Positions 1 to 13,071 of a stretch of 13,071 nucleotides of DNA are shown one piece after another. Positions within the stretch are counted from its first letter, which is position 1. Each line of letters opens with the position of its first letter. Source of the DNA: Jimgerdemannia flammicorona. Taxonomy: Eukaryota; Mucoromycota; Endogonomycetes; Endogonales; Endogonaceae. The notes below the pieces were generated by a model. It was not told the origin of the DNA, made no database searches, and was given only the letters and a program-made list of their open reading frames with translations. The stretch lies in the NCBI GenBank assembly GCA_003990745.1, contig RBNI01005059.1, positions 1 to 13,071 on the forward strand, written 5' to 3'. Position numbers and translations under genes: made by a program.

Positions 1-394
1 CCCCCCCTACTCCTTCTCAATAGAAGACTACTTTGTCTAACACTATTGCCACCCTCCCACCACTCTGCTCACAGATCCTTACCACCAAACTGCGATGTCG
101 TCCCCCCTGAGAACCCCAACCCACCCACCATCCAGTCAACAGATTCTCCAACAGCCCCTCCCACCTTAACACCTTCTCCCACAACCCCAACTGCTGCCCC
201 TCCTCAAATACAAAAAGCCAATGATCTGCTAGTCCCACCCATATTGCTAATATCCACCCTACAGTGAGCCAACTATCACCCACCCCACCCATAAGCCAAG
301 ATCTCAAGTCCTCCCAATGACCCCCCTCCCCCACCAGCCTATGCCCCACACCCAGTCTATCTCCTATTTCAGCCCAAAATTCTCTCAAAACCTC

Positions 395-466
395 ACACTC
401 TCTCAGCCAATGTTCTGGTGTCTGTACATGACCCCCAGCTCATCCAATATCATAACACTCCTCACA
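395..466 (-). other. Cys/His zinc-binding cluster at the ORF2 C-terminus (zf-RVT-like)
   Basis: FDCEECYDIG, a TGA, then a stretch ending EHWLREC gives Cys-x2-Cys (466-455) followed by His (412-410) and Cys (397-395). This is the pattern found downstream of the polymerase in many LINE proteins, where it is thought to bind RNA or DNA. The interrupting TGA at 442-440 sits in the loop. The open reading continues towards position 1 with Trp- and Gly-rich residues and no further recognisable motif. Confidence 0.65.
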
Positions 467-1159
467 GTCAAATTGTCCACCATCTACCAAATGCCCCATA
501 CGGAAATTCAGCATGACATTCTGCTGCAACATTCTCCACCATACCACCCAGTACTTGGGAGGAAGCCACCTCTGTACCTCTACACTCCAAGACCAGATAC
601 TGGCCCAGTCCCACTCCTCACCAATCTCTACCACCTGCCAGCCACTCAGTCAAAGATCCTGGCCAAACCCCTGCTGACACTCTACTCTCTCTCTAATATC
701 AAATGTAGCAAGTGGAGCACCCCCTAGGAGCAATCTATCCCAACACTATATATTAGGCCCCCACACTGCCTCTCCCTCATTGCCTTGCTAATTTGATGTG
801 CTCCATCAGCCATGCCCTATCAAAAGCCCTTGAACTGCAGCCGCCAAATTCCATTCAGCCCCACCAAAGAGAGCAGATCTCTGGAGGACCCCCAAGGGGA
901 TGTTCGCATCTCCCATACCTTCTGCAGCAGAGGCACCCAACTACTGCCCTGCAGTTCCACAGCTCTCTTCAACCACCAGGCTCGCAAGCAGTGCAGCCTC
1001 TTAGGAAAGTTTACTAGTCCAAGACCTCCTCTGACTATCAGTCTCGCAAGAGTATCCCAACTGACCTGGGACCTCCTCCCCACCCAAATCCAATCCCTAG
1101 CCACCTTTGTCAGCTTTTTCACTACCCATGCTAGGAAGTCAAGGTGATATGCCACATAC

Positions 1160-2300
1160 TATAGCTTGGGGAACCAATATATATTCAAGATTGACACCCA
1201 CCCTGCTAGAGAGATATGGCGGCCTCCCCATCCTTGAAGGGTCTCCCTCCAAATATTCATCCTGCTCTCCCACCACACTTGTGGCAAGACAGAACTATAT
1301 ACAGAGAGGAAGATGCCCAGATACCACACCACCTCATCAGTAGGGACAATTGTTCTAATGATATCTCCACCCACTAGCCCATTTTCTAGCACCATCATCT
1401 CACACTTATGTCAGTTGAGCTTCACTCCCGAGTGAGTCTCATACTATTCCACAGTCTCCTGAAGTGCCCCTACATCTACCACAGACCCAAGTCCAACCAC
1501 CATATCATCAGCAAAGGCCCCCACCTTCCATACTATACTATATATAGAGAGCCTTGCCACCTTCTGGCGAATCCTATCTATCAATGGCTCTAGCGAAAGG
1601 ACATAAAGAATAGGGGACAGAGGGTCCCTCTGAGGAACTCCTCTTCCTAAGAAAAATGCCCTCCCATGGTAACCATTACATGTCAGAGCTGCCTGACTGC
1701 TCTCCAGCAAACTCAATATAGAGACCCTAAACCTTGGGAGAACCCCAATTCAGTCCAATACCTTGCCCAGCCACACCCGCCATACACGGTCATAGGCCTT
1801 CTCCTGGTCTAAAAAGACCAACCTTTCATCCAGGCCACAGGCCTGGGCCCCTTCAATGATACCATGAACCCATGTAGTCCCATCTCTTATAAGTCTGCCC
1901 CCAACAAAGCCCCACTGCTCCTCCCCTAGCACCTGTTGGGCAACTTTCTGCAGCCATGCGATAATCACCTTAATCACCATTTTCCTGTCCATGTCCAGAA
2001 GTATGATCAGCCTCCAGTTCTTCCAGTCTTCCCTCCTCCCCTTGTCTTTGTACAATAAGGCCACCAGCCTGAGATCCTGCTCTCCAACCCACTCACCACT
2101 CTGAAGGACATGGTCACAGAGAGCAGCCCAAAACTCCAGGGACATTTACCATCTTCTTCCAGAAGTCCCATGGCAAACCATTCTCCCCTGGCACTGTCCC
2201 AAGTTTAGTTGCTGCCAGGACACTCTGGATCTCCTCTCTCTACACTGGTAAGATCAAGTCACCCAGTCCAGCTACTTGTGACAGCCCCCAATCCACAATC
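1160..2300 (-). other. Reverse transcriptase domain of LINE ORF2
   Basis: The polymerase motifs are readable in order. They are the leader VPGENGLPWDFW, then ILLDMDRKM followed by EEQWGFVGGR, then FLDQEKAYDRVW (first catalytic Asp at 1809-1807), then GVPQRDPLSPILYVL, then VGAFADDMVVGL (the FADD box with the paired catalytic Asp at 1515-1504). After these come the SGVKLN motif, a TGA where Trp is typical, HKCE, and a thumb-like region ending near 820. The catalytic residues are all kept, although the frame is broken near 2146 and by stops near 1748, 1440, 1405 and 1156. Confidence 0.9.
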
Positions 2301-2774
2301 TCCACCTCATCAGCACCCCCTTCTCTCTCACTCTACAAGCCCTGTCATCTCTCCTTCAATACTCCTAAGATTTGTTGTGTACTGTATATCATATCTCCAT
2401 CAGCATCCAGGACCCCATCCCACTGATGTTGTACTCTCCTAGCTTTGAGAAGTCTTGATAAGTACCTAGTAGGCCGCTCACTCTCCTCTAGCCCCTGCTA
2501 CCGTAGTCTAGCAGCCCTGTCCCACATATGAGTCTCCTCTACTTCCCTCAACACCTGTTGTAGTTCCACAATCTCCAATTTTGCCCTCTCGATCCTCCAA
2601 TTCTCCGCCCCAACAACAGTAAGCAAATCTGCCCAATCCATTTGTAGTCTCCTCAGCCTGCTGGAAGTATACCTCGTGTGCCTCTTCCTCTGCCTCCCAG
2701 CCTCTCTACCAGCCTCTCCCCAATAAACCCTCATAGCCTCTTTCAATCTCATCCAGCAGACAGCTACAGGCAAA

Positions 2775-3604
2775 CCCTCACACCACTAGTTAAAAACTTT
2801 TGCCTGAATGTCCTCCACCCACAATTCCCACAACCCCTTCTCAGCCAGCAGGGAGGAGTTAAGACACCAATGTCTGGGTTCATCTCTACTCCCCCCAAAC
2901 TGCCCCTGCCCCAACAGTCCCCAGTGATCAGACCATGGGTACCACTCCACTTCCAATGCCTTCCAAACATCTGAACCCCAGCACTCCACCATCAGAATCC
3001 AGTCAATCCTTGTGTCCAAGCCATTTACTCAATATGTGTAGACCCTGACATCACCCCACCTTATTCTGCCCATATTCCCCAAGGAGCTCAACATCTCCAC
3101 CTCCTCCCATGCATCTAGACCTCCACTTCTACCCCTGGCACTCCTCCCTCCATCAGTCCTGTCTAGACACTGATCCTGAACCATATTAAAGTCCCCACTG
3201 AGCATGTTGACCCCTTCCTCCAAGAGAATACCCTCCTCCAGCAGCTCCCTAATCTATGCAGTCCTCTCACCCCTAGCCGCAGGGCAGTAGCAAGAGTCCA
3301 CCATTACCAATTCCCACTCTGGCTGATGCCAATCTCCCCAGACCAAGTGATCACCCCAGCTCCTGATTCCCCCCAAGTCACCTCTACCCTTCCTTACCAA
3401 AATCACTACCTTTTCAAACCAAGCAGTAGCCCCACCCCATTCCCTTGTCCACTCTACCCGATCATCCTCATCCTCGCATTGAACATCTTATAGTAAAAAG
3501 AGATCAGCCTCTAATCCCTTGAGCCAAGTAAAAATGTTCTTATGCTGCCCAGAGCCCCTTAACCCATTCACATTTAAGGAGAAAATGTTGGTTGTACTGT
3601 TCAT
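2775..3604 (-). other. APE-type endonuclease domain of LINE ORF2
   Basis: The fold's landmarks occur in order. The N-terminal strand is FSLNVNGLRG (Asn motif). ADLFLL then precedes a stop where Gln is expected. After this come LSGDFNMV (GDFN motif), TRIDWIL (the SRID-like motif) and PWSDHWGL (the SDH motif with the catalytic His). The residue after the presumed Gln is Asp, where the catalytic Glu of the family is usually found. In-frame stops lie in the DLFLL motif, before IRELLEEG, and before VNGLDTRID. The order and spacing make the domain call secure; activity is not expected. Confidence 0.85.
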
Positions 3605-3620
3605 AAGGAATAGTGATATA

Positions 3621-5669
3621 TCATGGTCCCATCCTCTACAAGTCTGCATTCTGCTCCTCCTGCACCAAGTCCAAGACATGTTCAGCAGCTAGTTCCCTCT
3701 ACCCTGCTTCCTGTGCTGCCAACTCTCCCAGAAGTTCTACCATTGCCCCATCTTTACACTCCTCAAATTCCTTGCAATACTCCAGACAGGCCTCCTGCCA
3801 GAGCCACAAACCATAACGCTCTGCCTAGCAGTAGGCCACCTGCTCACCAGCAACCACCCCCAGCTCTGCCTTCCTCACCTCATCCACCTCATACCCCTCC
3901 TCCTCCAGGAAAATACCCAGAATCTCCACCTGTAGTATCTCCACCATTCCATTACCACACAGAATCTGTGCCCAATGCTCCTCAGGCATTGCCCGTAGGT
4001 CCACTTCCCCCAAAGCTTCTGCTGCGAGATTATCTATTACCTTGCGCATCTACAACAAGTTCCCCACCTCCTTCCCTCCTAGAGTCCCTGGCCGCCCTAC
4101 ATTCAGTATCATAGTGTCAGCTCCTACACTGACAGCCTCATCCCACTCCTCCTCAGGGACATCCACCAGCTCATCCTTGCCAACCACCACCACCTGATCC
4201 TCTTGTCCCACATCAGGGACCCCAAAGTGTACCTGCTGGGCCCCCTGCATCTATGTATCCTCCATCATCCCTCTCTTTGCAACTGGGCCCCTCCTGATAA
4301 GTGGGGGGGAGGTGGTCTCCAACTCCAGCTCCCATACTTCGAAGGTACTATTAGTAAATGGGTTCTTGTCCAGCATCCCCCCAGCCCCTGCCTCCTTTGC
4401 CTCTACCTCCTCTCCTTCTTTACCAGCCCAGACACTGGCCTTAGTACCTCCAGACTCCTCAGCTCCAACTGACTTCTTCTTGACCCCTCCTATCATACTT
4501 GCCAATAGCTCCCTCTGCCTCTTGCATCCCTGGGCCTGCTCCCACTGCTTCTTATCCATATGAATATGCTTCCTGCCCACAACCTCTAGATGCATTGACT
4601 CCTCATACAGTTTCCAGGCCTTCATCCTCCTCTCCACAGCACTACTCAACTCCTCCAGTGCCTCCAATAAGTCCTCCTCCTCCTCTTCACTCCCTTTCAC
4701 CCTCAACACCTTGCAGACAATGGCCCCCCACATCATCACCAAGGGCCAGTCACTTGTCTTCCCAGTGGCCTCCCTCTCTGCCAACTGAATTCTGACATCG
4801 ACATTACCTATCCTGAAAGTTGTCCCCTCCCACAACTGAAAGCCGATGTCCACCACATCACTATACTCTACCATCACCTCCTCCACCCTCCTTCTAGTCT
4901 CCTCCTTAGTCACTGTGAGCACCCCCCTCACTAGAAGCTGTACCACCCTGGGGTCCCACCTTAAGCACCTCACCATAGAAACCACTACCTCCCCAACCAC
5001 CACTCCAGTCTTCATGGCCTTATCCAGTAGGCCAGCCTCCTCAAAGCCCACCTCAACCCCCTCCAGGCCCTTCAAAAACTTCACCGAGGCCGCACCAGCC
5101 ACCTGCCTCGAAATGAGCCTCAGGACCATCCTTGCCATCACTGCCAAGCCCCGGAAGCACAAGATAGCTGCGAACTCTAAGATCGACTTCTTGAGTAATA
5201 GGGCTACCTCTAGTCCCGTCACACTATCTGCCAGGTCCCCCTTCCACATCAGGATCCCCTGCCCTCCCTGACCATCAGCCATCACATCTCTTTTTTTTTT
5301 CTGATTTGCCATCATGCCACCATCAGCAGTCCCACCACTACCCCCAGCAGTCCCTCCACTTCCCCCACCTCCCACCAGCAAAGGCCCAGCTCCCCCAGTA
5401 TCCTCAGCCTTCTGCTTCCCCTTCCCTCCAGCCTGATCACTGTGGGCTCTCATCGGCCAATCCTCAGCCCTCAGCATGTCTGCAAAGCTCCACCCCTACT
5501 GCCCTCCAGCCCCCCCATCAGTGCCACCTCCACTATCCAAGCTGCCCAGTCCACTTGAGCCACCAAAAGACCCCATCTCCAGTCTATACCTCCTCTCAAC
5601 ATGCTGCCAGTCAAAAGCCCCAGGTCCACCTGACCTAGTACGTATGTCAGCTTGCTTGCTGCTTGACAT
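3621..5669 (-). pseudogene. LINE ORF1 (gag-like RNA-binding protein), interrupted by stops
   Basis: One reading frame runs from an ATG at 5669 to a TGA at 3623-3621, about 683 codons. It is broken by TAG at 5498-5496, 4253-4251, 4052-4050, 3827-3825, 3701-3699 and 3638-3636, with no frameshift. The longest intact piece is 408 codons (5477-4251). The N-terminus is Ser/Gly-rich, the middle is a mixed helical region with hydrophobic and charged stretches, and the C-terminal third is acidic. No CCHC zinc knuckle is visible, so the gag-like role rests on position before ORF2. The start at 5669 is preferred to an ATG at 5768 because the codons upstream read back into the gypsy gag junction. Every internal stop is TAG, one transition from CAG or TGG. 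Confidence 0.7.
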
Positions 5670-5723: not shown

Positions 5724-6645
5724 GTGCCTCATAGTATTCTTTATCATTAGTGTCACTAATCTCCTCAATGACTACTGCATTGGTTTGTTCTCTAGTTCTG
5801 CTAGTATTGCTTAGTTGGGCTTTGCATCTTGTTTCGGTTATGCAATTCTTTACATAGTGGCCTTCTTCTTCATATCTGAAGCATGTGATATTGTATTCTT
5901 CTGTAGCAGCTGCAAATCTCTACACTAGTCTCCTGTTGGTACTTTGGACTTCTCTAATAACATCACTAAGGTATGCAGTCATCTCAGCAAACTGCTTGGT
6001 GAGTTCTTCCACTGGGTCAGCTTTGGCTGTCTTGGGGGTAGGTGGGGTTGGTTGTCTGTTTACGACTGTGGTGAGTATGATACTAGTTAGTTTTGATGGC
6101 TCCATCTTAATGCCAGTTATTTTCTCTATTGAGTGTTCAGCAGGGTGTCTGGCAGTCCAATATCTCTGTGCAAAGACCACTTTCTGATCAAGGATCAGTG
6201 CAGCTGGGGTAGACCAGATTGCTAGGGCAATTTCAGAGTAAACTCTCTTGAGGAAGGTTGAATCTACTATTTGTTCCTTGAGAGCATCATCACAGCCAGC
6301 CAAAACAATCTGGTGGTAGATTCAGATATAGAATGAGTTGAGATCTTCACTAAGTCCCTGGCAGATAGTATTGAGTTAATCCTTGAGAGCTTGCTTGATT
6401 TCTTCAGTATAGTATGTTGTTCTGAGGAAGACCTTCATGTTGGCAAGTTTGGCTGCACCATTATCGGCAATAGTGACTGCATTGAACTTGTCTCTAGCAG
6501 GTCCTCTGAGGCTGACTGGTAGAAGGACCAATTGAGCATTCACACCAAGGGCTTGTACAGTGGCAAATTGTTCAAAGTCTTCAATGAAGGTCAGGATTGA
6601 CTCTTCAGTAGTATATCTATAGAATGTAGAGGGATGCATTTCTAT
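5717..6645 (-). pseudogene. Gag of gypsy element A, truncated by LINE insertion
   Basis: The protein packages element RNA into virus-like particles. A single frame aligns with gag of element B: ESILTFIEDFEQF, SLRGPAR, TYYTEEIKQALKD, VYSEIALAIW, FAQRYWTARHP and ELTKQFAEMTAYL are shared landmarks. The codon aligned with B's start is ATA (6645-6643), one transition from ATG; the first ATG in frame is 6639. Stops are TAA at 6378-6376 (Gln in B), TGA at 6324-6322 (Arg in B) and TAG at 5922-5920. The zinc knuckle (5883-5842) has lost its second Cys, now Tyr, while its first Cys, His and last Cys remain. Homology ends shortly after it, at the LINE. Confidence 0.85.
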
Positions 6646-6699
6646 CTTATCTTGAATTTTTGCAGGGGTGACTCTTGTAGTCAGGGTAGTTGTTGTGGA

Positions 6700-6765
6700 G
6701 GTTGTTCATTTTTTAGCTTGAAAGTGAGGGATTTGTCTTGAATCACCAGCCAATGGGCACCAAGT
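6700..6765 (-). other. Leader and primer-binding site of element A
   Basis: This stretch starts at the LTR end with ACTTGGTGCCCATTGG and continues GCTGGTGATTCAAGA. It matches the leader of element B at 60 of 66 positions, much more than the two gag genes match each other. In LTR elements the sequence beginning TGG just after the 5' LTR pairs with the 3' CCA end of a tRNA to start minus-strand synthesis. The particular tRNA was not identified. Confidence 0.65.
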
Positions 6766-6972
6766 TATCATGTAGTGGTCACTGAGTCCTTCAAATATAC
6801 CAGATTCTCTTCAAGATGTATCTCTTAGACTAACTCAAGTTTGTTATAAGCAAGTTCTTATTAGAGTACCTTTCCAAGATCTTATAGTCCTCAAAATTCT
6901 TATCTTTAAACTGTCTTGTTATCTCTTAGATTGCTTGCAAGGAAGTGTATATATTACACTGAACTGACTGAC

Positions 6973-6978
6973 TTTATT
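6973..6978 (-). promoter_or_regulatory. Polyadenylation signal in the LTR of element A
   Basis: AATAAA on the minus strand lies 19 nt downstream of the TATA box. Element B has the same signal at the same spacing (18 nt), which supports both as LTR control elements. Confidence 0.5.
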
Positions 6979-6997
6979 TTAGAGGAAATAAGAGGAG

Positions 6998-7005
6998 TAT
7001 TTATA
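6998..7005 (-). promoter_or_regulatory. TATA box in the LTR of element A
   Basis: TATAAATA on the minus strand, embedded in GTATAAATACTCC, matches the TATA context of element B (GTATAAATAATCC). Transcription of the element RNA would start about 30 nt downstream, towards gag. Confidence 0.65.
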
Positions 7006-7105
7006 CAAAATATAATTCAATAGTTGCTAAGATATAAAGCTAAATATAAATTCCAATAACTAAAACTACTAAGTTCCAGGGTTGGTACTGATAGTTGTAC
7101 AGGTT

Positions 7106-7239
7106 CAGAATACTGGTATTATCTAGTATTACATCAGAATACCAGTACTGGAACAATTTCGTGTCACCTCAGAATGCCAGTGCTGGCATTATCCAGTATT
7201 ACATCAGAATACCGGTACTGATATTATTTAGTATAACAA
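7106..7239. repeat. Four tandem repeats in U3 of element A
   Basis: Units start with CAGAAT at 7106, 7135, 7170 and 7205. The last three are 35 bp and the first is 29 bp. They share CAGAATACCAGTACTGG-like and ATTATCCAGTATTACAT-like halves; the second unit has a different right half. Each left half holds the palindrome CCAGTACTGG or a variant. Lying 100-240 bp upstream of the TATA box on the minus strand, they are placed like enhancer repeats. Confidence 0.75.
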
Positions 7240-7244
7240 AGAAC

Positions 7245-8288
7245 TTAGAGCAGAAAGTTCAGGATCATGGGGGCTTCATCCTCATTATTACTAAAGGAGA
7301 TGAGATCTGTGAACTCATTGTGTAGGTCGCACATTTTGTATATGTCGCATGAGATGATGTCATCACCAATGATGTCATCATATTCGGTAGAGAAATCAGG
7401 AATAAGGTCTGGAGCTCTCCAGTCTATGAGGTTCTCTTCTACAAAATAAGGAATAAATGTGGGGTCTTAGGGAGGTCTAACCTGAATGCTTGGGTCTTGG
7501 AATACTGAGATCAATCCTTGTAGGAATTGGTCTGGGTTGTCCTGAAGGATAGGATACTAGAAGTCTTCTACTTCTTCACTGTTAAGAGTGATAGTGGACT
7601 GGGTTTCTGTAGCCACCCTGGCTTCTAGTATATTAATACAGCGGGATGACAGGCCTCTGAAGTCTGAGACTCTAACATACTCCAAGTTGGGGATCAACTA
7701 TGGTATATGCCTGAAGATCTGATGGATCTTCTTAGCTGTCCTTATTTCATATATGTCTATAAAAGTGGCATCTTGTAGCTCTTGAGTGCTAGCCTGTGGG
7801 AACTTCTAGCAGAGAAGGTTTCCTATTTCATACTCCTGTCATATTTGGAGACATTTGGTAGCAATGGTGATCCTTGTTTCCATTTCATAGCAGTAGAGGA
7901 TAAAGTGATAGAGATCTGCAGTATCCAGGTTGACACTAGGAGTCCTTCTTGAGTGGGTCCTCATAGCTCTTCTGATGTCTTGGAATATCCTTTTCTCGAC
8001 TGAGATGCCTTAGTGATTCCTTGACCTTGAGGTTTGGTAGGCAGCAGGTATTTCATTTATGGTAAGTTTTTGAGCTATTTTGGAATTAGTGGTTTTTGTT
8101 GGTTACTACTACTGCAGTTCCTTGATCCTTCTTTTATATTATTCAGGATGCTTGTACTGTGGTCACAATGACTCACAGTTGGTCATCATTGCTCATCTCA
8201 TATACCATATGATCTTCTTGTGCTCTAATCTAGTGGCTTGTAAGGAAAGGCTGTCTCCTGTGCTGATGTCATCATTCTGGGGTCACTG
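7245..8288 (-). pseudogene. Unrecognised ORF inside the LTR of element A (about 345 codons, decayed)
   Basis: One frame, without frameshift, can be followed from the LTR start to a TAA at 7247-7245. About a dozen internal stops break it, including TGA at 8195 and 8165, TAA at 8141 and a TAG-TAG-TAA run at 8111-8103 that directly follows a CAG and looks like a former Gln run. All are one transition from Trp or Gln codons. Readable pieces include a basic N-terminal part, SVNLDTADLYHFILYCYEME, DATFIDIYEIRTAKKIHQIF, and an acidic tail with a repeated DDIIG/DDIIS pentapeptide. No signal peptide or known domain was recognised. No in-frame ATG lies near the LTR start, so the gene either began in the internal region and ran into the 3' LTR, or lost its start codon. 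Element B's LTR lacks it. Confidence 0.5.
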
Positions 8289-8309
8289 TTACAATATATA
8301 TATTAAATA

Positions 8310-8332
8310 AACTCTTAATAAGATTAAGAGTT
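8310..8332. repeat. Perfect inverted repeat, 10-bp arms, 3-nt loop
   Basis: AACTCTTAAT, AAG, ATTAAGAGTT can fold into a hairpin about 17 bp outside the LTR start of element A. It could be a terminal-repeat remnant of the older transposon or chance in AT-rich sequence. Confidence 0.5.
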
Positions 8333-8399
8333 AGATTAATCAAGTGTTCCCAGTTATCTTTTTTTTACTTAATAAAGTATATTAGATATAATTATTAAA

Positions 8400-9990
8400 T
8401 AAATATTTATAAGAGATAGTTCTTATAGTATATTCTAGAGTTTGGTTGATAGATGATATAATTATTAGTAAAAAATATTTATTCAAAAATAAGTAAAATT
8501 AATATATATAGTTAGTCTCTATAATCTATACTCTTGAAGACTCTTTTCAGCTATTTTATATTTACCTTTCAAATTATAAATCTATATATATACAGCTGCT
8601 CTCTGAATTTTAGGAACTGTTTATCTTATCAAGATATGAAAATTATAAGTAAGGGGCTATATATTTTAAGCAAGCTTGATTTATACAGATCAGACAAATC
8701 AAACATACCTCTGAATAATTGACTATAAAGAATATAACTACTAAATAACAATCATAAAGGTTGCCATCTAGTATATATATAATAATATCACTACAAAATA
8801 TATTTATAATCAGCTATTAAATAATAAAATTTTTATCTAAACAAATTTATAATTATAAATATTACCTTTTTTCTACTATAGATAGTCTATAAAGTACTCA
8901 TGATATATATCTATAATATAGAATAACTTTCACTTTACAGAAGAAGTCTTTTTTGATCTCCTTAAAAGTCCCTTCAATAATTGAAAAATATGTAATTACT
9001 GGGAATATATTTTGCAAGTATGTTTGCTAAATAGATTTAGAGAGATTACTAATAAAAATATGTATATAGCAGATATATTTTGATACATCTAAGCAAATTA
9101 CAATATATTTGGTCAATCCCAAATAATATCAAGATTACTATTATACTAAGTGGGAGTTTCTCCTATAGTTTGGAAAAAGAATTATAGTCTGCAAATAGTG
9201 AGTATACTAACTGATCATCTGCAAATTTAAAATTAATTATTATTTTACCTATATTTGCTATCAAAAATCACTCCAATATATCTTAAAGCACTTTTATATA
9301 TAATCTACTATATAGTATTTCTCTGCTTTAAATTTTATATTGTTTTTGAATAAAGCATTTGATGTTAGCTTGTGTAGAACAGTAAGTAGATCTTAATAGA
9401 ACAGTATATATTCACCAGTCTAAGTTTCAGACATATGAGTAATATTAAAAACTTTATAATTAAAGAGCTAATTTAAAAAAGAGAATTACTAAATATTCAT
9501 CAATTTAACAGAAATATTAACTGTTTAATTATGTACTACTCTGTTTTTAGCTAATATATCTAAAAGTTTTATCATCTCTCTTAAGTTTATAAACTAGAGG
9601 GACCTATTCACTATTGAAATTCTTTTATCTACAAATATATTAAAAAGTTCATCTGCAACCTTTTGGGATATATTTTCACTTTGAAACAATAGATTTATAA
9701 GCTAAATTTCTCTATCATTCTTCTAAGAATATAAAGAATTATTTATATCAGTTATAGGTATCCATCCAAGTTTAGAAATAAATTCATTATACTGTATAAG
9801 TACTTTTTTGCTATTGATAATCTGACCACTAGTTGGTTTGTAGATAATATGATTTTTACTGAACTTCAATATAGTAGATGGGCTTCTCTGATCTTGAATT
9901 GAATTGTTATTCTCTTTGAACAATTATCTTTCCTCTTGAATTGAATTATTATTTTTGCTAAATAATGGGCTTTTCTGTTTTTGAATTAAA
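8400..9990 (-). pseudogene. Degraded DNA transposase, Plavaka/KDZ-like
   Basis: Stop-riddled minus-strand translation gives pieces in the order expected of Plavaka-type fungal transposases. SLYS then KNDREI and ENISQKVADELFNIF (9740-9620) resemble the N-terminal 'S-x-D-x-E-I-A' and 'LS-x-x-A-x-x-x-LL' region. GEYILFY then DLLTVLHKLTSNALF (9405-9345) resembles the 'Y-R-D-x-x-x-x-I-x-x-L' block. EKLPLSIIVILILFGIDQIY (9165-9106) resembles 'LP-x-x-x-x-x-x-P-I-x-x-x-x-D-K-T' with a catalytic Asp. SQLFRGMFD (8717-8691) resembles 'HQL-x-K-G-x-F-x-D'. KVNIK then LKRVFKSI (8554-8526), after a TGA where Trp is expected, resembles 'WTG-x-D-x-K-x-L-M-x-V-F'. The frame shifts at least once near 9240-9300. 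The match is from memory of the family, not a search, and the piece is dead. Confidence 0.5.
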
Positions 9991-10022
9991 AATAGGCCAT
10001 CACTATTTATATTATCTTAAAT

Positions 10023-10040
10023 TATATATATATATATATA
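10023..10040. repeat. (TA)9 microsatellite
   Basis: An uninterrupted TA run inside the AT-rich segment, about 65 bp from the LTR of element B. Nothing suggests a function. Confidence 0.8.
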
Positions 10041-10179
10041 CTTAGTATAATTATCCGAAATCTTCTAAGTTCATATATATGAATTATTTAAACTTGAAAT
10101 ATATATTGTGACAGTCAATCCAAATTAGTAATATGAATCAGGGGAGTTAGACATTTGATCATGGTACCTGAATCCGATT

Positions 10180-10314
10180 CCCAGTATAGTATAGCCTTAT
10201 AGTTAGCCAAGTCTCCGATTTAGACAATATCGAAATATTTCGACACTTGCGAAATCGATGACCCAATATAGTATAGCATTTAGACAATGGCGAAAAGTCT
10301 CGATACTTGCTAAA
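10180..10314. repeat. Direct repeats in U3 of element B
   Basis: CCCAGTATAGTATAGC (10180-10195) recurs as CCCAATATAGTATAGC (10262-10277). A 37-bp unit beginning ATTTAGACAAT with ACTTGC near its end occurs at 10218-10254 and 10278-10314. The first 37-bp copy contains the perfect palindrome TCGAAATATTTCGA (10230-10243). A shorter repeat, ATAACTTAGCC, follows twice at about 10321-10344. Placement upstream of the TATA box suggests enhancer or silencer-protein sites. Confidence 0.75.
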
Positions 10315-10365
10315 TAACTCATAACTTAGCCGCATAACTTAGCCATCTCATAGTTAGCAAACTTG

Positions 10366-10373
10366 TATAAATA
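10366..10373 (+). promoter_or_regulatory. TATA box in the LTR of element B
   Basis: TATAAATA lies 211 bp before the LTR end and in the same context as in element A. Transcription would be expected to start near 10395-10400. Confidence 0.7.
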
Positions 10374-10391
10374 ATCCAGTATCTTAGAGTA

Positions 10392-10397
10392 AATAAA
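10392..10397 (+). promoter_or_regulatory. Polyadenylation signal in the LTR of element B
   Basis: AATAAA lies 18 nt after the TATA box, matching the arrangement in element A. In an LTR it would act in the 3' copy. Confidence 0.5.
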
Positions 10398-10576
10398 CCT
10401 CAGATCGAAATAGTTCAAAGCAAAGAAAAAGCAAAGGAACTAGTAAGCCTGCGGGCAGATACACTTCGAACTCACCCACCCCTGCATACTGAGGACTCCG
10501 CGGAGTCAAAGAAGATCAAGAATTCAAGATACAGAAATCCGATGTACTTACAAGGTTAAGCATCCGCTACGTTACA

Positions 10577-10642
10577 ACTTGGTACCCATTGGCTGGTGAT
10601 TCAAGATGAATCCCTCACTTTCAAGCTGAACAACGAACAACC
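10577..10642 (+). other. Leader and primer-binding site of element B
   Basis: It begins ACTTGGTACCCATTGG immediately after the LTR. The TGG at 10580 would pair with the CCA end of a tRNA primer that was not identified. The 66-bp stretch differs from that of element A at six positions only. It includes a short upstream ORF of seven codons plus stop (10606-10629) that element A lacks because its ATG is absent, so the uORF is probably incidental. Confidence 0.65.
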
Positions 10643-10678
10643 GCTACCACAAGAACTCACACAACACAATCAGACAAG

Positions 10679-11776
10679 ATGGACATAAGACCACCTGTAT
10701 TCCATGGATATACTTCGGATGAATCAATCGTCACCTTCATAGATGATTTCAAGCAGTATACTGCTGTTAGGATCTTAACTGCAGGACAGCAAGTAGCCCT
10801 CATGCCCTACAGCCTACGAGGACCTGCAAGAGCAGCATTCACAGCCGCAACCCATGCAGGAAATGATGCCGATGCTATACTGATAGCACAGAAGACCTGG
10901 CTCTGGAATACCTATTACACAGACGAGATCAAGCAAGCCCTGAAGGACCAGCTCAATACAACATGTCAAGGAATGAGCGAGGATCCAAACACATTCTTCA
11001 CAAGAATCTGATATCAGATAATCCTCACGGATTATGCTGATGCCATCCGAGACCAAGTAGCTGAAGCAACCTTTATGAAAGGAGTTTACTCAGAGATAGC
11101 CTTGGCCATCCACTCATCACCAGTAGTCCTGGATCTGGCACAAAAGGTTACCTATGCTCAGCGATATTGGATAGCCAGACATCCACAAGACCACACAATG
11201 GAAAGAGTTACTGGTATTAGAATCGAAGCACCCAAGCCAACTAGTATGATCCCTACCACTATGATCAATCGAAACACACCTCAGCCAAGAGCTATAGAAC
11301 AACAGAGAAACAGCAATCCTATGGAAGAACTTGCTAAGCAGTTCGCTGAAATGACTGCTCACCTGGGGGATATGGTAAAGGAAATCAGAGGAAGAGATCG
11401 CTGCCCAATTCAGAAGTTTGCCGCCACCTCAGACAAGAAGAAAGGTACCTGCTACAGCTGCGGAGAAGAAGGCCACTACTCATATGAATGTATGAGTGAA
11501 ACCAAGCGCAAGGCCCAGCCAAGCAATGCTACCACTAGAAATAAGGAGCAAGCCAACATTATCACCTTCGAGGAGATTGGAGATTCAGACAAGGAATGGG
11601 AGGCCTATCCTGCTCAGACCACTAAGAAGGATGTTCGCAAGAAACCCTACAAGAGATCGCCAGGAAGACCCAAGAAGAACTCAGTGGAAAAGCAGATGGA
11701 AACAACCACAGAAAGCCAAGCTGAAGAAATGGATCAAGACATAGAGCTCAAGCAAGCAGTCCAAGATATCATCTGA
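10679..11776 (+). other. Gag region of element B
   Basis: This part forms the particle shell and binds RNA. It shares with element A the landmarks ESIVTFIDDFKQY, SLRGPAR, TYYTDEIKQALKDQL, VYSEIALAIHSSP, AQRYWIARHP and ELAKQFAEMTAHL. The TGA at 11009 lies inside the conserved shell domain at a residue that is Tyr in element A, so it is damage and not a boundary. The region after the knuckle is rich in Lys, Arg, Glu and Pro (KRSPGRPKK resembles an AT-hook or nuclear-localisation-like basic patch). Confidence 0.85.
11450..11491 (+). other. CCHC zinc knuckle of element B gag
   Basis: CYSCGEEGHYSYEC fits C-x2-C-x4-H-x4-C exactly, the nucleocapsid motif that binds element RNA. The equivalent motif in element A has lost its second Cys. 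Confidence 0.93.
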
Positions 11777-12029
11777 GGAACCACTCCAGCAAGTGAAGGA
11801 GAAAAGGAGAAGAAGCTTCACAAGACCAAGACTTTCAAGTATGATATCTTTAAGGATCTCAGCCAACAGAAAGTTAATGCAACCTTCGGCCAGCTGGTAG
11901 AAATCCCCACATTCAGGCAGCAAATGAGATTTGGGCTTGCAGAAACTACCAAGGAGCAAGATTGGAAGATAATGGAGGCCAACAATATTCAAGAAGACTC
12001 CGGAGAGGAAAGTGAAGACAACCACAAGA

Positions 12030-12350
12030 CTTCTGCTTATGCAACCTGCCAAATCGAAGATAGAATCTTTGAAGCCATCATAGATACAGGAGCAGGAGGA
12101 TGTCTCCTCAGCAAGAAGGCAGTAGACTGCTTAGGATGGGAGATCGAAGAAGCAACCAAGCTGGTATTCGTCACAGCAGATGGCACAAGAGCCACCCCTC
12201 TGGGAAAGATCCGAGATATTCCCATCAAGTTCGGAAGAGCGACCATCCCAGTTGATGTGATTGTAACCAATGCAACCAACTATAACATCCTCATTGGCAA
12301 TCAGTAGCTTCACAAAGCCAGAGCAATAATCGATCTGAATGCACAGAAGA
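12030..12350 (+). other. Retropepsin-type aspartic protease domain
   Basis: It cuts the polyprotein. FEAIIDTGAGGCLLSKKAV carries the catalytic Asp-Thr-Gly (12083-12091) followed by Ala-Gly. ATPLGKIRDIPIKFG lies in the flap-side half, and NYNILIGNQ then TAG then LHKA is the C-terminal 'ILG-x-x-W/F-L' motif. The TAG at 12305 replaces the Trp usual there. The catalytic triad itself is intact. Confidence 0.88.
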
Positions 12351-12550
12351 TGCAGATTGTCTACCAAGGACAAAAGATGCGAATCCCTATCAATGTTAAC
12401 AAAGGAGTGCTCCCCGAGATGGAGGAAGAAGAAGGTAAGCAAGAGGAAGCCTACATGGTAACCACACAGAAAAAGAAGAAGAAAGTTGAATGGATGAGTG
12501 AGGAGGAATGGTGCAAGAAGATTACAGAAGGGTATGCGCCACAAGGAGTC

Positions 12551-12607
12551 TGCCCCCATGGAATCAAGATGTACTATATGGAGCATGTCAATGATTGCTA
12601 CCAATGC
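12551..12607 (+). other. Cys/His cluster between protease and dUTPase
   Basis: CPHGIKMYYMEHVNDCYQC has Cys-x-His near the start, a second His, and a closing Cys-x2-Cys (C-x14-C-x2-C). It could bind one zinc ion. It sits in a linker rich in Lys and Glu, followed by a coiled-coil-like charged helix (about 12620-12720). It resembles the CxHG...CxxC short zinc motifs seen in various eukaryotic and giant-virus proteins; that comparison is from memory. Its role in the element is unknown. Confidence 0.45.
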
Positions 12608-12754
12608 ACTGGTAGAATCAAGAAGATCCACTATGAAAAAAAACAGAAGGTTCTCGAAGAACAGGCCAGAAGAAAAAAGGAAGAGGAAGAAGATGACGAA
12701 CCACCAGCCCTCCTAGAAGACAGCGACGATGAAGAAGAGATCAAGGTCAAGATT

Positions 12755-13071
12755 CGGAAAATCCATCCTGATGCAGTTCTACCAGAATACAAGTCGAAAA
12801 ATACAGCTGGAATGGATATCGCCACAGTGGAGGAAACCATACTGGAGCCCCAGACAACTACTCTACTCGCAACTGGACTAGAAATGACCATTCCAAAGGA
12901 CCACATCGGAATTCTCAAGACAAGAAGCAGCCTGGCAAAAAGCGAAATCACCATTGAAGGAGGAGTCATCGATTCGGACTATATTGGGGAAATACTACTC
13001 ATCGCTAGGAATCACAATCCTACCATTCCATTCCCAGTCAAGAAGAAGGATCAGCTAGCACAGATGCTGAT
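12755..13071 (+). other. dUTPase domain in the retrotransposon polyprotein, cut by the window end
   Basis: dUTPase hydrolyses dUTP to dUMP and pyrophosphate, keeping uracil out of cDNA. Four of the five trimeric-dUTPase motifs are in order. Motif 1 is TAGMDI (12803-12820). Motif 2 is TRSSLA (12920-12937). Motif 3 is GVIDSDYIGE (12962-12991), with its catalytic Asp at 12971 and the base-stacking Tyr kept. Motif 4 is DQLAQML (13049-13069). The usual Arg in motif 3 (DYRG) is Ile. Motif 5, the Gly-rich tail, would lie beyond the window. No stop interrupts 12308-13071. The domain lies after protease and presumably before reverse transcriptase. Confidence 0.92.

Follow-up and report, generated by a model that had tools for sequence, protein, structure and literature searches.

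An apparent accessory gene within the U3 region of a Ty3/gypsy long terminal repeat in the fungus Jimgerdemannia flammicorona

Results

The window that we analysed, that is, the whole stretch of 13,071 nucleotides, corresponds to one entire contig (RBNI01005059.1) of Jimgerdemannia flammicorona, and the genome with which it was compared comprises 134.8 Mb in 7,754 contigs. An RPB2 exon scored 452 bits against yeast RPB2 (YOR151c) and about 380 bits against the RPB2 chains that came next, in line with a fungal genome; its decay and its content of elements would be in keeping with a truffle-like host (PMC4165359). The window contains a decayed LINE-like sequence (positions 1-5640, minus strand), the remains of a Ty3/gypsy element read on the minus strand (element A), an AT-rich stretch, and a second gypsy element on the plus strand (element B, 10107-13071). 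The LINE-like region shows two reverse transcriptase (RT) matches, at 2145-1750 (E = 3.9e-08) and at 1716-1444 (E = 3.8e-06, below the Pfam cut-off), and its 408-aa open frame at 5477-4251 gave no Pfam match. Element A is represented by its 5' long terminal repeat (LTR; 6766-8293), by the primer-binding region directly 3' of it (6747-6765), which is conserved after 5' LTR copies, and by a decayed gag region (5730-6700) ending at the LINE-like sequence; positions 5727-8296 gave an 89% alignment with a related locus, L009. The stretch between both gypsy elements (8294-10106) has a GC content of 22% and holds no listed ORF longer than 66 aa, and the window as a whole had no Rfam match at gathering scores. 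The LINE and element A had CpG observed/expected ratios of 0.07-0.16 and the AT-rich stretch one of 0.04, with 0.37 in the interior and 0.93 in the LTR of element B, a pattern of strong to weak depletion that would be expected from decay driven by methylation and differing in age.

A search with positions 7245-8293 yielded 39 other matches that were 87-89% identical (best 40 of 2,878 candidates scored, the window itself included). On each of three contigs (L009, L010 and L011), two LTR copies lie about 7.24 kb apart and align over 1531-1544 bp with 90-95% identity, which bears out the LTR of about 1.53 kb proposed in an earlier, sequence-only reading of this DNA. These LTR pairs enclose gag, dUTPase, RT, RNase H and integrase, with RT and RNase H upstream of integrase, as in Ty3/gypsy elements; Pfam placed the dUTPase ahead of RT, RVT_1 (1.6e-33) and RT_RNaseH_2 (3.4e-12) at L011:3518-5338, and Integrase_H2C2 (7.8e-17) at L010:6173-6526, 3' of the RT of L010. 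In most of the 43 extracted copies, over which the ends were compared, the LTR has a TGTAAC-type start and a GTGACA-type end, and it is followed by a primer-binding region if it is a 5' LTR or preceded by a purine-rich tract if it is a 3' LTR. A short target duplication of 4 bp was clear in two of the three pairs (ACAT/ACAT in L011 and TTAT/TTAT in L009), the flanks of L010 matching at 3 of 4 bases. From the paired LTRs with their TG...CA ends, the primer-binding region, the purine tract and the flank duplication, it follows that 8293-6766 is the 5' LTR of a minus-strand Ty3/gypsy element. The LTR copies compared are best matches and no random draw; codon counts were made on 37 of the 43, which include the three LTR pairs and so are partly non-independent, after omission of L028, L031, L034 and L043 (1,620 bp or longer) and of L020_2+ and L022_2522- (too little LTR covered), while the reading of stops before 3' LTRs used 36 copies (L012 omitted as well).

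Within this LTR, the codon counts in 37 copies and the metagenomic relatives P0001-P0008 delimit a minus-strand ORF of 268 codons at 7245-8051 (LTR 243 to 1049). Its start codon is ATG in 31 of 37 copies and ATA in the other six, the window (8051) being among these six, and its stop codon (7247-7245 in the window) is kept in all 37 copies, as TAA in 36 and TAG in one. A leader of 242 nt (8052-8293) separates the LTR terminus from this start; in it, in-frame stops at LTR 99, 129 and 183 (codon first bases at 8195, 8165 and 8111) are present in 37, 37 and 36 of the 37 copies, respectively; they are fixed in this sample and do not reflect decay. Given the position of the ATG and these upstream stops, the gene corresponds to 8051-7245. 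The sequence-only reading had described a single frame of about 345 codons starting near the LTR terminus; one long minus-strand frame free of frameshifts is indeed present, but both its proposed length and its proposed start have to be abandoned, the first 80 or so codons being no part of the gene. The expected end of the frame ahead of U3 repeats and a TATA box was recovered, as the ORF is followed in the window by 35-bp tandem repeats (7113-7237, minus strand), some with the palindrome CCAGTACTGG, and then by TATAAATA (6998-7005, minus strand; LTR 1289), found in 37/37 copies, which would act as the main LTR promoter at the end of U3. With the U3 border placed by this putative TATA box, the ORF is taken to lie wholly within U3.

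In the window itself, the ORF is interrupted by six in-frame stops. At each of these six sites the remaining 36 copies most commonly have Gln or Trp, in agreement with the view that all stops are one transition away from Trp or Gln codons; the window copy is a decayed, broken one. Intact ORFs (ATG, no internal stop, no frameshift, final stop) were found in five of the 37 copies, and 39 of 134 scored genomic protein matches had no internal stop (a hand count that includes the query's own place, the 134 being the best candidates and no random sample). The comparison of both LTRs of full-length relatives, which had been proposed as a check, located the ORF in both LTRs of about 1.53 kb in L009, L010 and L011. 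LTR copies lacking the ORF were also sought, with the ORF-free LTR part 3' of it (6766-7240) as a query: all eight copies read, the window included, have the ORF upstream (best 40 of 2,709 candidates scored). In the copies read, the ORF does not appear to be a separate insertion, and no ORF copy outside an LTR was identified among the minority of the 134 and 164 protein matches whose flanks were inspected.

Several features indicate that the ORF evolves as a protein-coding gene, as judged from sequence comparison. Of 33 distinct insertion or deletion events inside the ORF, 28 have a length divisible by three, versus 9 of 37 elsewhere in the LTR (Fisher P = 3.4e-7); for events common to three or more copies, this holds in 12 of 12 versus 2 of 9. 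Averaged over the 37 copies, the ORF frame contains 1.8 stops per copy, compared with 9.9 and 19.9 when the two alternative forward frames are read. Eight metagenomic proteins (P0001-P0008) proved to be relatives, sharing 45-83% identity with the query listed first, and one of these, P0002 (271 aa), begins at the same methionine as the LTR ORF. Among the copies of the family of element A (family A), transitions occurred at 0.103, 0.065 and 0.133 by codon position, a third-position excess but one shaped by strong C-to-T decay, and transversions displayed no third-position excess (0.0069, 0.0044 and 0.0061 per site).

With the metagenomic protein P0005 as a query, older and more decayed relatives were reached, of which eight (L046-L053) were read. 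In six of these eight loci the shared block begins, after unrelated flanks, at a common, LTR-like boundary, which reads TG in L048 and L053 and TA in the other four (all by eye). BLAST similarity between the LTRs of the two families begins about 20 nt upstream of the start codon, and no similarity was reported by BLAST outside the ORF. Against the unbroken copy of L011, in-frame pN/pS was 0.34-0.48 in all eight loci, in contrast to 0.87-1.54 in the other two forward frames, the alignment being protein-guided and hence somewhat favouring the ORF frame. One reverse frame gave 0.46-0.60, as shared third positions would predict. Synonymous sites are near saturation between the families (pS 0.70-0.81 over the eight main alignments), and transversions by codon position show a weak phase (e.g., 41, 21, 40; P = 0.02-0.12 in four comparisons). 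P0006 was omitted from two alignments as its tail looks chimeric, and the C-terminal pieces of the old family were omitted from one owing to poor alignment. By eye, the C-terminal tail of P0006 resembles the LTR reverse strand, and its metagenomic contig may be chimeric or contain an inverted duplication.

On one contig (C790), two ORF-bearing LTR blocks, which share 82% identity across 1,048 bp, enclose RT and integrase, and the RT shares 37% amino-acid identity with that of element A, from which we conclude that two distant gypsy lineages have the gene in their LTR. Together with the frame-specific pN/pS, these sequence data show that the LTR ORF has been kept under purifying selection across two distant gypsy families. 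A query of dUTPase plus RT matched the C790 element (L055) from the RT part onward only, and the old-family element may lack a dUTPase. Non-coding LTR sequence with a long frame arising by chance could account for the six stops of the window copy and for the missing codon phase in family A transversions, but it is contradicted by the indels in multiples of three, the conserved start and stop, the frame-specific pN/pS and the open metagenomic relatives, and we consider it the least probable of all explanations, to the point of being barely credible.

How such an ORF might be expressed was addressed from the motifs surrounding it. At LTR 156 (8131-8138, minus strand), 87 nt 5' of the start, 36 of 37 copies have TATAAAAG, a motif match that makes this site a candidate promoter of the LTR ORF, and 34 of 37 have AATAAA, a candidate polyadenylation signal, at LTR 1316 (6973-6978, minus strand), about 267 nt 3' of the stop. 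The leader is well conserved overall, with 8 of 235 octamer windows as conserved as TATAAAAG, so that the conservation of this octamer appears modestly special; by chance, it occurred in 0.3% of trials with dinucleotide shuffles of A and in 2.65% with those of L047. In the old family, exact TATAAAAG is present in four of eight loci, 63-69 nt upstream of the start, with the variants TATAAAAA in L053 and TGTAAGAG in L050 at the octamer site, L051 and L052 having no alignable sequence there. ATG triplets occur upstream at LTR 19, 22, 86, 93, 98, 105 and 108 in 21-36 of 37 copies, and in 20 of 37 an ATG in another frame precedes the start by 5 nt; a transcript beginning 3' of TATAAAAG would bypass the triplets at LTR 5-108. 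Because TATAAAAG stands at LTR 156 and AATAAA at LTR 1316, and the upstream ATGs would be bypassed, this arrangement suggests that each LTR may be a self-contained gene.

Two other modes of expression involve the 3' LTR. The sequence-only reading had the ORF begin in the 3' internal region and run into the 3' LTR, the 5' LTR copy thereby lacking a start. In agreement with this, the integrase (pol) frame is in phase with the LTR ORF in L009-L011. This frame is, however, closed by a stop 36 nt 5' of the LTR in 14 of 14 3' LTR copies (by eye), and the stops at LTR 99, 129 and 183 follow in 36-37 of 37 copies, although an intron could remove them; an origin in the internal region is not supported, and we regard it as very unlikely. 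More serious is the alternative that the gene is real but expressed from the 3' LTR only, in the manner of nef or sag, on spliced or genomic RNA and with TATAAAAG unused. A genomic RNA starting after TATAAATA has U3 at its 3' end only, and a splice or an internal start is compatible with the sequence. Against this speak the TATA box at a similar distance in the distant family and the closure of the pol frame 36 nt before the LTR, some 280 nt before the start, while simple reinitiation is countered by the ATG triplets that intervene at LTR 19-108; we give this alternative a minor, though appreciable, chance. As a separate observation, a frame spanning the purine tract (about -233 to LTR 106) is open for 75-113 codons in L009, L010 and L011, in all of which it is out of phase with integrase; in 8 of 14 copies it extends into the 3' LTR for 67-106 nt, and in the other six a stop closes it 92 or 113 nt short of the LTR.

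The LTR of element B measures 460 bp, and the element has a zinc-knuckle gag and an aspartyl protease, followed by a dUTPase-like stretch (by eye). Its LTR carries no LTR ORF; 39 other full-length scored copies of this LTR were 94-95% identical (best 40 of 1,987 candidates scored), with two pairs (C2507 and C1079) about 6.25 kb apart. Internally, element B is closer to element A (66% over 2.6 kb), and the gene was thus either lost in element B or exchanged along with the LTR. As element B lacks the ORF yet has many copies, the gene is dispensable for transposition in general. The missing ORF in the LTR of element B could also be explained if the gene had been acquired from a host or a virus and were a passenger that does nothing for the element, and so could the lack of significant relatives in Pfam, PHROGs and PDB. 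A passenger is at odds with the low in-frame pN/pS across two gypsy families whose RTs are 37% identical, and no copy outside an LTR was identified among the minority of matches read; on balance, we find this explanation improbable.

Concerning the protein, no Pfam family was matched at E up to 1 by two unbroken copies, and sequence and profile searches of PHROGs and PDB revealed no significant relative (best E 0.1 and 0.66, respectively). None of 290 pattern matches in viral contigs was a relative by tblastn. A relationship to the element's own gag was considered and dismissed, there being no significant match (best E 0.084). The first 60 residues are positively charged (+3 to +8 in six unbroken copies and P0002) and the last 70 negatively (-14 to -21 in six unbroken copies, P0002, P0001, P0003 and P0005), and family A proteins end in LNFLL or LNILL. 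Two AlphaFold models were poor (mean pLDDT 43.3 and 50.5) and too weak for a fold search; in the second, helices extend as far as residue 185, and the tail has no confidently modelled structure. A basic N-terminus combined with an acidic tail would suggest a trans-acting regulator.

Discussion

Taken together, our observations uphold one part of the original proposal, namely an accessory gene in the LTR of a gypsy element, and do away with the other, its origin in the internal region. The explanation that we favour, and hold to be probable without being assured of it, is that each family A LTR contains a complete U3 accessory gene, with a putative promoter and poly(A) signal of its own and a presumed role in trans, the window copy being a decayed example. 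The ORF would be transcribed from its own TATA box TATAAAAG at LTR 156, and the transcript would end at the AATAAA that the element itself uses, so that 5', 3' and solo LTRs could each make protein, independently of the genomic promoter TATAAATA. The protein, with its basic N-terminus, its probably helical first 185 residues and its acidic tail, may, with less certainty, act in trans on the element. Most plausibly it would regulate transcription by way of the 35-bp repeats beside its own gene, or counteract host silencing; of these, a regulator working through the adjacent repeats is our preferred function, put forward as a conjecture that is rather doubtful at present.

The ORF described here is an extra ORF of an LTR element, placed wholly in U3. 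Plant aORFs, rotifer ORF3 and Boty brtn are likewise additional reading frames of LTR elements, with functions that are unknown or diverse, but they are located between pol and the 3' LTR. Lentiviral nef is also an accessory ORF that lies in U3 or overlaps it, but its start is 5' of the LTR; the present ORF differs from it by starting 242 nt inside the LTR, with fixed in-frame stops both before the LTR and before the start. Neither the plant aORF review (PMC7264820) nor the rotifer paper (PMC5408684) has wording on LTR-internal ORFs in its main text, as far as the excerpts of both extend. According to the available sections of PMC4667437, LTRs are ordinarily non-coding, and the sag gene of MMTV lies mostly in U3, is present in solo LTRs and has several described promoters, one of them inside U3. 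The LTR ORF resembles sag in that it is likewise in U3 (LTR 243-1049, before TATAAATA at 1289), and differs in that it belongs to a fungal gypsy element and has no detectable homology to sag (no Pfam family and no significant PDB relative). Among fungi, excerpts of PMC2864245 report dUTPase in gypsy elements, situated between protease and RT in Postia PosPlaTy3-5; element A, with its dUTPase ahead of RT, is similar to these elements (Postia PosPlaTy3-5, Phanerochaete, Tuber Tmt1), but no LTR ORF is mentioned for them in those excerpts. The crapaud subfamilies of Podospora anserina are set apart by the 5' half of their LTR, and crapaud is in this sense comparable as a fungal LTR element, the difference being that gag and pol ORFs alone are mentioned in the passages of PMC10787394 at hand. 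At the level of titles and abstract beginnings, no description of a fungal gypsy element with a gene inside its LTR was encountered in the open-licence literature.

In a broader and more tentative reading, which we would not yet bet on, in two or more fungal gypsy lineages that separated long ago the LTRs would themselves be genes, with promoter, ORF and polyadenylation signal inside a single LTR, and each solo LTR would be a potential source of an element-encoded regulator that controls or protects the whole family in trans, a U3-encoded protein that arose independently of vertebrate retroviruses. If a conserved gene does lie wholly inside the LTR of this high-copy fungal element, many LTRs, now mostly dismissed as regulatory remnants, may code for protein, such genes being hidden by annotation that masks LTRs, and the MMTV-like design of a gene in U3 would have arisen more than once. 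The finding also raises the testable question of whether LTR retrotransposons of transposon-methylating hosts might encode trans-acting regulators or anti-silencing factors.
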